Shown here: one piece after another, positions 918-3,709 of the stretch
How the letters are laid out: each line of letters begins with the position of its first letter
Position numbering within the stretch: position 1 is the first letter of the stretch
IMG/VR virus record: IMGVR_UViG_3300034685_000134
Location: 1-24,594 of that record
Direction: 5' to 3' (one strand)
From: a virus
Length of the DNA stretch: 24,594 nt
The notes under the pieces: generated by a model
Told to the model about the DNA's origin: nothing
The model's input: only the letters and a program-made list of their open reading frames with translations
The model's database searches: none
Made by a program: the position numbers and the translations under genes

Positions 918-1610
918 TTAGTTAAACCATTTGATTATAGTATCGCCCTTGAAACCTTTTTCCCAAATAAACCAAGCATATGCAACTGCACTACCACCGC
1001 CCGCAATCATTTCATCAAATCGTGCATTTTTTGCACATAATAATCTACTACTTGATACATAGATTGTTTTAGGTGGATTAGATAAAAATAATTTTTTACG
1101 TTCTTTACCCTCTAAAAATTGGATTTTTAAAAACATTGCGATTTTATTACCTTCGGGTATAATATTTAATGCTTTTTCAATAAATTGTTTAGCATATTTA
1201 TATGGTGGATTTGTGATAATATCACCATTCCAAAAAGTAATATCATCGCTAAGAAAATCAACACCACCTTCACCAAATCCTCTATAAATTAGATCGGTAC
1301 TTTTTACAGTATAACCAGCCTTTTCAAAAACTTTACTTAAATGACCTTCACCACAAGCACATTCCCATATGTTTTGGGAGAATGTTTCAAGTTCTAACAA
1401 TAATTCACCCGCTTTAGGGTCAGTTGCGTAAAAATCGTGTATGTCTCTATGCTCTTTAGACAACTTTTGTTTTTCAATTCTCCATTCCGCATACTGATCT
1501 GCGAAATCATCCATTGCTATACGAATAGAATCGTAAAGCTTAGGATTTTTACTCTTTATGTCGTATACTGGAATCCCCGCATTTTCTAAAATCATATCTG
1601 GAGTTTTCAT
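918..1610 (-). CDS. DNA amino-methyltransferase (N6-adenine or N4-cytosine type)
   Basis: A 230-aa protein with the two hallmark motifs of amino-methyltransferases. The SAM-binding motif is at about residues 82-89 (WECACGEG, the FxGxG-like loop), with the acidic residue closing the next strand at about 106 (STDLI). The catalytic motif IV NPPY is at 134-137 (DIITNPPYKY). The reaction is SAM-dependent methylation of an exocyclic amino group of adenine or cytosine in DNA. The order SAM motif then NPPY fits the gamma-like arrangement of single-chain phage enzymes. There is no large target-recognition domain, so specificity cannot be read. It has its own promoter at 1662-1693. The likely role is protecting phage DNA from host restriction or marking its own DNA. 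An RNA or protein methyltransferase with NPPY is possible but less likely in this context. Confidence 0.78.
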   Translation of the reverse strand: MKTPDMILENAGIPVYDIKSKNPKLYDSIRIAMDDFADQYAEWRIEKQKLSKEHRDIHDFYATDPKAGELLLELETFSQNIWECACGEGHLSKVFEKAGYTVKSTDLIYRGFGEGGVDFLSDDITFWNGDIITNPPYKYAKQFIEKALNIIPEGNKIAMFLKIQFLEGKERKKLFLSNPPKTIYVSSSRLLCAKNARFDEMIAGGGSAVAYAWFIWEKGFKGDTIIKWFN

Positions 1611-1710: not shown

Positions 1711-2139
1711 TTATATTCCAGTAGATCCAAAGCCTCCTCTGGAATCATTATTCAAGTTATCAACCATTTCAAACTTAACATTCGGCTGATTTTTGATAAT
1801 TCTGAATTGCAAGATGCGCTCGTATTTTTTTATGAATGTTTCCCCTGTTAAACAAAAAAGGTATCCACCCCAAATATCATCATCGCCGCGGTAGGAGTTA
1901 TCAATTATCCCTATTGAGTTGGCAAGAATCAACCCGTGCCTCTTGAACAAGCTGCTTCGGGGAGCGATTATGGCTTCGTACCCAGCTGGCAGTTCCATTG
2001 AAACACCTAAAGATATTTGTAAAATGTCTCCCTGTCTGATATGCCAACCATCACCTGTGAACCTGTCTGGTAGGTTAACAATATCCACCAAGTATAAATC
2101 AACCCAATCGCCGTTATCTAGTTTAACTAGTCTCGGCAT
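1711..2139 (-). CDS. dut: dUTPase (deoxyuridine 5'-triphosphate nucleotidohydrolase)
   Basis: A 142-aa trimeric-type dUTPase that hydrolyses dUTP to dUMP and pyrophosphate, keeping uracil out of phage DNA and feeding dTMP synthesis. Motif 2 is APRSSLFKRHG (about 60-70). Motif 3, the uracil pocket, is NSIGIIDNSYRGD (about 74-86). Motif 4 is RILQFRI (about 108-114). The C-terminal glycine-rich motif 5 is RGGFGSTG (about 134-141), which closes over the active site. Motif 1 is the divergent GDWVDLYL form seen in phage enzymes instead of the usual AGxDL. Length is normal for the family. It stands between two intergenic regions, separated from the methyltransferase operon upstream by 149 bases that may hold its own weak promoter. 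Confidence 0.93.
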   Translation of the reverse strand: MPRLVKLDNGDWVDLYLVDIVNLPDRFTGDGWHIRQGDILQISLGVSMELPAGYEAIIAPRSSLFKRHGLILANSIGIIDNSYRGDDDIWGGYLFCLTGETFIKKYERILQFRIIKNQPNVKFEMVDNLNNDSRGGFGSTGI

Positions 2140-2288: not shown

Positions 2289-3266
2289 TTAAACAGTTTT
2301 GATTATCGCTTTAAAAATTTGATATGCAACCTGGGGGACTATGGCGTTACCGTATGCTTTTAATGACTCTTTTCTCCATTTAGAAAAGGTAATTCCGTCC
2401 AGTCTGTCGGAAAGCCCATCATCTCCGCTACAAACCGGGGGTTGAGTTGGGAAGTTTTGCCAGGAGTCTGTGCGAAGCAATGGGCAAAGGTTGCATTCTG
2501 TAATTTCGGATTTTTCCTTACCGCGCCGCTCTTGCAGCAACTCACTACTGGCGTTGGTAGAAGCGTTTTTGCTATTACCTCCTCTAGGTTGCCCTTGTTT
2601 CTGTTGGCTAACTTTACATTGCCCACAAGGTTGGAACCATTCACTTCGTTGGCTCTCGGGGTTGGTAATAATCGGTTGTAAATAAATCCAGTTGCAACCT
2701 CCTGTGCAAGTGTGCCGCTGTTGCCCATCCGTTGTTCCTTCTTGTTTAGATTTTCCGAAATGGCATCCATTGCGCTTGGTGTTTTTAGCAACAATCCAGA
2801 CCCTATCCCTTCTGTGCGGCGCGTTGACACCTGCAGCTGGAAGTATAACCGTTTGAACCTCGTAGCCTTCATTTTCCAAATCAGAAAGCACCTGCTCGAA
2901 TACCACTCCCCCTCCCGAACTAAGTAGCCCAGAAACGTTTTCGCCCACGACGAATAACGGGGAAGTTTCTCTAATTGCTCTAAGCATTTCCGGCCAGAGG
3001 TATCGGTCATCTTCATTGCCTTTTCGCTTCCCGGCAACGCTGAATGGCTGGCATGGGAATCCCCCTGTGAGGATGTCAACATTTCCTCGATGTATAGTGA
3101 AGTCTGTTTTTCTGATGTCCTCATAACTAATTGTATTAGGCCAGTAGTAATTAAGCACCTTTCGGCAGAATGGGTCTATTTCGCAGTTAAATATGTTATT
3201 CCACCCCATCCATTCGGCGGCTAAATCAAAGCCACCTATCCCGCTGAATAAACTTGCATGATTCAT
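2289..3266 (-). CDS. DNA (cytosine-5) methyltransferase
   Basis: A 325-aa C5 methyltransferase transferring methyl from SAM to cytosine in a specific DNA sequence. Motif I is FSGIGGFDLA (about 7-16). Motif IV is GGFPCQPFS, with catalytic Cys72. Motif VI is ENV (109-111). Motif VIII is PHRRDRVW (about 150-157). Motif X is YGNAIVPQ (305-312). The region between VIII and X (about 160-290), where the target recognition domain should lie, is polar and low in hydrophobic residues. It ends in the FPTQPPVC and GITFSKWR stretches common in phage members. It is the last gene of the long operon and overlaps the DnaA-like gene by 1 base. The stretch is visibly more GC-rich than its neighbours, suggesting separate acquisition. 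A second frame is open inside it (see 2360-3124). Confidence 0.92.
   Translation of the reverse strand: MNHASLFSGIGGFDLAAEWMGWNNIFNCEIDPFCRKVLNYYWPNTISYEDIRKTDFTIHRGNVDILTGGFPCQPFSVAGKRKGNEDDRYLWPEMLRAIRETSPLFVVGENVSGLLSSGGGVVFEQVLSDLENEGYEVQTVILPAAGVNAPHRRDRVWIVAKNTKRNGCHFGKSKQEGTTDGQQRHTCTGGCNWIYLQPIITNPESQRSEWFQPCGQCKVSQQKQGQPRGGNSKNASTNASSELLQERRGKEKSEITECNLCPLLRTDSWQNFPTQPPVCSGDDGLSDRLDGITFSKWRKESLKAYGNAIVPQVAYQIFKAIIKTV
2360..3124 (-). CDS. overlapping +1-frame ORF inside the C5 methyltransferase gene
   Basis: A 254-codon ORF lies wholly within the methyltransferase gene, in the +1 frame relative to it. Its first 110 residues are the alternate-frame reading of motifs IV to VIII. The rest has its own order: three similar LLxTP blocks (about 111, 152 and 188), then LNPRFVAEMMGFPTDWTELP (227-246). 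That last block resembles the LNPxWVExLMGFPxGWT ending I associate with phage cytosine methyltransferases and the LTPREcARLMGFP motif IX of classical ones. The 325-aa frame has no MGFP motif. It could be a translated companion protein, a frameshift product joining both frames, or a relic. A frame this long without stops is unlikely by chance in AT-rich DNA. It is not certain that it is expressed. Confidence 0.45.
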   Translation of the reverse strand: MRTSEKQTSLYIEEMLTSSQGDSHASHSALPGSEKAMKMTDTSGRKCLEQLEKLPRYSSWAKTFLGYLVREGEWYSSRCFLIWKMKATRFKRLYFQLQVSTRRTEGIGSGLLLKTPSAMDAISENLNKKEQRMGNSGTLAQEVATGFIYNRLLPTPRANEVNGSNLVGNVKLANRNKGNLEEVIAKTLLPTPVVSCCKSGAVRKNPKLQNATFAHCFAQTPGKTSQLNPRFVAEMMGFPTDWTELPFLNGEKSH

Positions 3267-3709
3267 TAAACTATTGATTTGCTTTCTCCGGTTACAGCAT
3301 TGTAATAAGCCAAAAATTTTTCGGCTTGCTCCATGTAGTAGTAAGCGTCATTTCTATCTTTAAGATAGTTCTCAATATTATCTTCTATTTGTTTAATAGT
3401 AGTGTAAATTGTAACTGGCATTTTAGTTTCCATAATATCTGACACCACATTTAGGCTATTTAAAATAGTAGCATGAGCCTTCCTGTTCGTTAAATTGGCT
3501 ATCTGCTCAAGTGTTAAAGATGTATATTTAAAAGCGAAATATTGAAATATTTGACGTTTATAGCGTATGTTATCTACCCTGGAATCAATAGAAATCATAT
3601 CCAAATCAAAACCAATAATAGCCGTCAAAACGTCAACAGGAATAAGTTTCTCGCTCTTTTTAAACACTCTCCCATTAGAAACGATTGTTGATGCGCAATG
3701 ATTATTCAT
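3266..3709 (-). CDS. stand-alone DnaA domain IV-like DNA-binding protein
   Basis: A 147-aa protein whose middle (about residues 43-95) matches the DNA-binding domain IV of the bacterial initiator DnaA. It has the SRVDNIRYKRQIFQYF helix, then TSLTLEQIANLTNRKAHATI, which corresponds to the DnaA signature around GGRDHTTV. The AAA+ ATPase domain is absent and the protein is too short to hold one. The likely role is sequence-specific DNA binding at a phage origin, or regulation at DnaA-box-like sites. The C-terminus (about 95-147) is helical and acidic and not recognised. It lies second to last in the operon that begins with the sliding clamp, consistent with a replication role. Confidence 0.65.
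   Translation of the reverse strand: MNNHCASTIVSNGRVFKKSEKLIPVDVLTAIIGFDLDMISIDSRVDNIRYKRQIFQYFAFKYTSLTLEQIANLTNRKAHATILNSLNVVSDIMETKMPVTIYTTIKQIEDNIENYLKDRNDAYYYMEQAEKFLAYYNAVTGESKSIV

Follow-up and report, generated by a model that had tools for sequence, protein, structure and literature searches.

The window analysed here, a 24.6-kb stretch of DNA (24,594 nucleotides) that is itself a virus record, carries on its minus strand, at positions 2289–3266, a gene for an α-like C5-cytosine methyltransferase of 325 residues; a protein-identical gene is also present in a 58.7-kb IMG/VR contig. The Pfam family PF00145 matches residues 1–176 only (E=2.9e-48), and phrog_363 matches over the full length. 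Enclosed within this gene, in the +1 frame of the same strand, is a second gene at 2360–3124 that opens with its own ATG (3122–3124) and runs for 254 codons from ATG to stop, or 271 codons from stop to stop. Its product, a β-like subunit of 254 residues, matches phrog_1008 (E=4e-24) and is under purifying selection. An earlier note on this DNA had singled out a 254-codon +1 frame within the 325-residue gene, and we find it on the minus strand exactly where that note placed it.

Upstream of the pair, a gene at 3266–3709 (minus strand) encodes a small protein with a match to the DnaA C-terminal helix-turn-helix (PF08299, E=2.5e-8), and its stop codon shares a single base with the start codon of the methyltransferase. 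Downstream, and in the same direction, lie a dUTPase gene (1711–2139, minus strand) and a second methyltransferase-like gene (918–1610, minus strand; phrog_799, E=1.3e-61). No restriction enzyme was recognised among the examined neighbours of the pair in the 24.6-kb window. In three phage records (L002, L003 and L006; Bacteroides phages and phage C72C1), the annotation places a gene for phosphoadenosine phosphosulfate reductase a short way downstream of the nested pair.

Motifs and predicted structure of the two products

The main-frame protein has the features of a C5 methyltransferase, namely the PF00145 domain, invariant PCQ, ENV, RxR and GN residues, and a fold match to M.HhaI and M.HaeIII. 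In the main-protein alignment, motif I (LFSGIGGFDLA, 3219–3251) and motif IV with the catalytic cysteine (GGFPCQPFS, 3039–3065) are invariant or nearly so and motif VI (ENV, 2934–2942) is invariant, as are R153 and R155 of motif VIII (PHRRDRVW, 2796–2819) and G306 and N307 of motif X (LKAYGNAIVPQV, 2328–2363), all on the minus strand. The earlier note had described the main frame as keeping motifs I, IV, VI, VIII and X while lacking MGFP, which proved accurate: MGFP is absent from the main frame of the gene at 2289–3266, and α (frame 0) was not found to combine motif IX and a target recognition domain in one chain. M.HhaI aligns with positions 3–171 of the main-protein profile, close to where the Pfam match ends at residue 176. 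Beyond this point, residues 168–292 (2391–2765, minus strand) are variable and occupy the usual place of the target recognition domain. Between motif VIII and a W.NFPTQSP segment the main-protein alignment has almost no majority residue, and the AlphaFold2 model of α, with a core of pLDDT >90 and confident motif X helices, has values mostly <50 for residues 168–292. The DNA of this unconserved region of α encodes, in the +1 frame, the MGFP segment and LPTP blocks that are conserved.

These blocks, three in number, had been reported in the earlier note as LLxTP repeats together with LNPRFVAEMMGFPTDWTELP, and all are present. Block 1 (LLLKTP, 2777–2794) contains T115, nearly invariant in the nested-protein alignment; block 2 (LLPTP, 2657–2671) is placed from the sequence, and in block 3 (LLPTP, 2549–2563) the LPTP is nearly invariant. 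They are followed on the minus strand by a motif IX-like segment (LNPRFVAEMMGFPTDWT, 2396–2446), with M236, G237, P239 and W242 invariant and a consensus among nested ORFs of LNPxFVxEMMGFPxDW. The database search of the 254-residue product proposed in the earlier note was productive in part: phrog_1008 is matched by nested residues 12–245 over positions 34–281 of 329, and profile searches of Pfam, NCBIfam and the PDB returned nothing significant. When a 26-residue segment of β (GKTSQLNPRFVAEMMGFPTDWTELPF) was compared with 177,635 PDB sequences, the sole match, a weak one (E=1.8), was to residues 269–289 of M.HhaI (GKTRKLHPRECARVMGYPDSY), a stretch that forms motif IX there. In 41 of 46 ordinary (classical) methyltransferases, motif IX is where the best 16-residue match to the β segment falls, and profile comparison gives E about 0.001–0.2 (single target) with a probability of ≤20%. 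Each of these matches is short and non-significant alone; the segment resembles motif IX in both position and residues. Modelled on its own by AlphaFold2, β is predicted with low confidence (pLDDT 58, pTM 0.24), and Foldseek found no fold match for this model, its matches being noise.

Coding signal and initiation in the +1 frame

A long open frame inside a conserved gene may be an untranslated by-product, the shadow of main-frame conservation and codon choice, and we examined this idea by synonymous shuffling, by which it was rejected. When the synonymous codons of this gene are shuffled, the longest open stretch in +1 has a mean of 102 codons; the 271 codons observed are reached in 0.02% of 5000 shuffles and never when the shuffles use the codon usage of the 24.6-kb window. 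The +2 frame of the gene is ordinary (34 codons), and in 14 other genes of the window the +1 frame is open for ≤58 codons. Viral relatives were gathered twice, by the +1 product (L010–L089) and by the main product (L090–L169). Were its claim false, the earlier note had reasoned, stops would be expected in most homologues; a homologous +1 ORF is kept in all 80 relatives picked by the main frame only, and indeed in all 169 viral and phage loci collected at that stage. The relatives selected by the main frame have a mean +1 stretch of 267 codons, compared with 102 after shuffling, and in 89% of the genes it is longer than in all 300 shuffles, while the +2 frame stands at the shuffled level (43 against 45).

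A β profile was trained on half of 111 non-redundant genes and scored on the other half, where the held-out genes average 337 bits against 139 for their synonymous shuffles, with 55 of 55 above all of their own shuffles. Since shuffled genes still reach 139 bits, part of the resemblance to the β profile is a shadow of main-frame conservation; the score above that level is, by this measure, that of the +1 protein itself. The synonymous-site check suggested in the earlier note points the same way. In pairs with 75–90% main-protein identity, fourfold divergence is 0.352 upstream of the nested ORF, 0.147 from the nested start to motif VIII, 0.143 in the recognition region, 0.045 in the MGFP core and 0.358 past the nested ORF, so that the core stands at 0.045 against about 0.35 outside the overlap. 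Within the core, main-frame third positions are almost invariant and first positions variable, the main protein alternating between S/P, L/I/F, D/N and G/R as the +1 protein stays nearly unchanged; in this core it is chiefly the +1 frame that is under selection.

The 139 bits retained by shuffled genes are what can be said for a main-frame shadow. Against it stand an openness and a profile score that exceed the shuffles, synonymous divergence suppressed only within the overlap, third positions frozen where first positions are free, and 42 ordinary C5 methyltransferases without such an ORF; we consider it scarcely credible as an explanation. Dual coding of the gene at 2289–3266, as the earlier note had proposed, is borne out by +1 openness, profile scores and fourfold constraint across relatives, and on these comparisons we regard it as firm and close to certain. 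That note had also allowed for a frameshifted fusion, in which ribosomes would move from the main frame to the +1 frame and so join the catalytic domain to the recognition part of β. At one locus (L562) both parts do share a frame, and frame changes that may be mutations occur at three more, but an ATG heads the +1 ORF, upstream of the PCQ motif, in 111 of 111 non-redundant genes, and a stop usually closes the +1 frame only a few codons before it. In 81 of the 111 this ATG lies 22 or 23 codons before PCQ (23 in the gene at 2360–3124). The pattern of a programmed frameshift, a +1 frame entered from the main frame and lacking a start of its own, was not found; the conservation of β begins near its ATG, and a fusion would lose motif X, which is kept in frame 0. 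The fusion is thus left unsupported and we judge it highly improbable. Because the ATG is the nested gene's own and conserved, and the frame upstream of it usually closed, internal initiation is favoured over frameshifting, and β is probably initiated internally.

The nested gene and motif IX in phages and bacteria

Nesting extends well beyond the viral relatives. Two distant proteobacterial types have the nested ORF in 80 of 80 and 63 of 67 loci, respectively (143 of 147 in total). Fourfold divergence in the core is 0.009 for the first of these types. The second type has a core under weaker constraint (0.23), but across its recognition half first positions diverge more than third positions. 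One locus of 67 (L562, of the divergent type) has the main-frame catalytic part and the nested C-terminal part in one open frame, and L554, L565 and L567 have frame changes in the same gene; these may be mutations or genuine fusion. All 80 chromosomal loci retrieved by the +1 profile are nested, 8 of them with a partial main-frame match. No standalone β was seen among the 332 nested-family ORFs in all loci collected, a retrieval that favours relatives of the queries, so rare and more distant standalone forms may exist. Wherever it was found, β lies inside α, save at a few frame-disrupted loci, and α is without motif IX in the members looked at.

The relation between nesting and motif IX was followed in a sample from bacterial genomes, in which a sequence pattern served to assign motif IX, supplemented in a few cases by visual inspection. 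The 42 C5 methyltransferases whose main frame includes motif IX are all without a nested ORF, and their +1 frames (64.8 codons) are no longer than when shuffled (65.8). All 8 methyltransferases without main-frame motif IX (L347, L348, L349, L350, L378, L393, L414 and L421) carry a motif IX-like +1 segment, the +1 ORF of L378 being shorter and possibly broken. With 42 in the main frame and 8 in the +1 frame, motif IX is therefore found in one frame or the other throughout this bacterial sample. At L414 the PCQ motif reads PCK (GGFPCKQTSRL), and a nested +1 ORF is still present, ending LHPELFEWLLGYPIGWTEL.

One family does not fit this division. Streptococcal-type phage methyltransferases (L262–L341) have LTPRECWRLQGFP in the main frame together with a selected nested +1 ORF of about 140–190 codons; L177 is Streptococcus phage Bonnie. 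Their +1 stretch is 166 codons against 67 when shuffled, with 14 of 14 above the shuffles, and fourfold divergence is 0.118 in the first half of the nested ORF against 0.42–0.49 outside. The nested product is without MGFP and ends in a conserved SLSDILEE.VDE.YFLS, within a consensus of ...SVEDFRARLS...WMNWGMMxNGKCLTAKI...SLSDILEExVDExYFLS. Profile comparison of this product with β gives a probability of 94%, a likeness that may be a shadow of related main frames. As these genes combine motif IX in frame 0 with a nested ORF, motif IX alone does not explain nesting: either the nested partner has a further role predating motif IX loss, or a second nested gene arose.

A putative two-polypeptide methyltransferase

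The gene probably encodes both the α chain and a motif IX-bearing β chain of a two-polypeptide C5-cytosine methyltransferase resembling M.EcoHK31I, a reading drawn from sequence comparison. In such an enzyme the main frame would supply a catalytic α with AdoMet binding, the catalytic cysteine and motifs I, IV, VI, VIII and X, lacking both motif IX and a folded target recognition domain. Initiation at the internal +1 ATG would yield β, with its conserved LPTP blocks and a C-terminal motif IX-like helix. Most likely β would dock on α and complete the small domain that holds the DNA, and the completed domain would in turn permit sequence-specific methylation; we infer both that the two chains form a complex and that activity would require β. 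The suggestion in the earlier note of a companion protein supplying part of target recognition fits the complementary motifs, the disordered recognition region of α and the IX-like C-terminus of β. That β sets target specificity is plausible, though we propose it tentatively.

A nested protein may be real and selected and still have an independent function (e.g. counter-defence or regulation), having been overprinted on the methyltransferase gene and forming no part of the enzyme. The streptococcal type, with a selected nested ORF despite motif IX in frame 0, would accord with such an origin, as would the lack of a recognised Pfam domain or fold match for β. Set against these are the loss from α of motif IX and a conserved recognition region where β has gained a motif IX-like segment, the position of that segment as the most constrained part of β, and the fact that β is not found without α. 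An independent function consequently seems unlikely, and a two-polypeptide enzyme is the reading we prefer. By extension of the two-polypeptide reading, many of the C5 methyltransferases of phages and bacteria that are now annotated as single chains, a large class, may be α/β enzymes in which the whole recognition module comes from a nested +1 gene and the main frame gives only a disordered linker, so that evolving specificity in one frame would be paid for in the other; we advance this generalisation with caution.

Split enzymes of this kind have precedents. For M.EcoHK31I, which recognises YGGCCR and is a precedent that the earlier note does not name, Lee, Kam and Shaw reportedly found in 1995 that the small polypeptide is read from a different frame inside the gene of the large one, both being required in vitro. 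M.EcoHK31I is a natural two-polypeptide C5 methyltransferase whose large chain holds motifs I–VIII and X together with a predicted recognition domain, motif IX being on the small chain (PMC3404938). The layout of motifs in our pair is alike, with a large chain lacking motif IX and an IX-like segment on a separate nested polypeptide, but where the recognition domain of M.EcoHK31I is predicted on the large subunit, the corresponding region of α is unconserved and predicted to be disordered. M.AquI is also split, its smaller chain having motifs IX and X and the distal half of the recognition region (PMC3404938), which makes it a split in sequence order. Our pair resembles M.AquI in comprising two polypeptides with motif IX on the smaller, and differs in that motif X stays on α and the small gene is nested. 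A further parallel is a phage methylase gene with a mobile insertion element, in which a second protein is likewise encoded out of frame; that element carries an HNH endonuclease, whereas in our pair it is the methyltransferase itself that is overlapped, and no HNH domain was seen.

The nested product is directly related to phrog_1008, which bears the annotation 'DNA methyltransferase', and to the gene recorded as 'g55 internal gene' in Paenibacillus larvae phage Shelly; annotators list Shelly gp56 and Lily gp63 as genes internal to the C5 methyltransferase, without a mechanism. Most database records annotate just one of the two frames, and since annotation treats phage and prophage C5 methyltransferases of this kind as one protein each, the second gene is missed. 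If the main frame were cloned in recoded (codon-optimised) form, the nested subunit would be lost and the enzyme could appear inactive. Within a partial coverage of the literature we found no paper describing the nested family at large; the two-part kind of enzyme is already known, while its breadth and near-obligate nesting appear new. The family offers gene pairs nested in nature whose products likely work together, where one can measure how coding constraint is shared between the frames, and it turns a single-enzyme curiosity into a testable rule, that a methyltransferase lacking motif IX in its main frame has the motif in +1. A Bacillus anthracis prophage methyltransferase is reported to have the same predicted site as M.EaeI, YGGCCR (PMC4722110).
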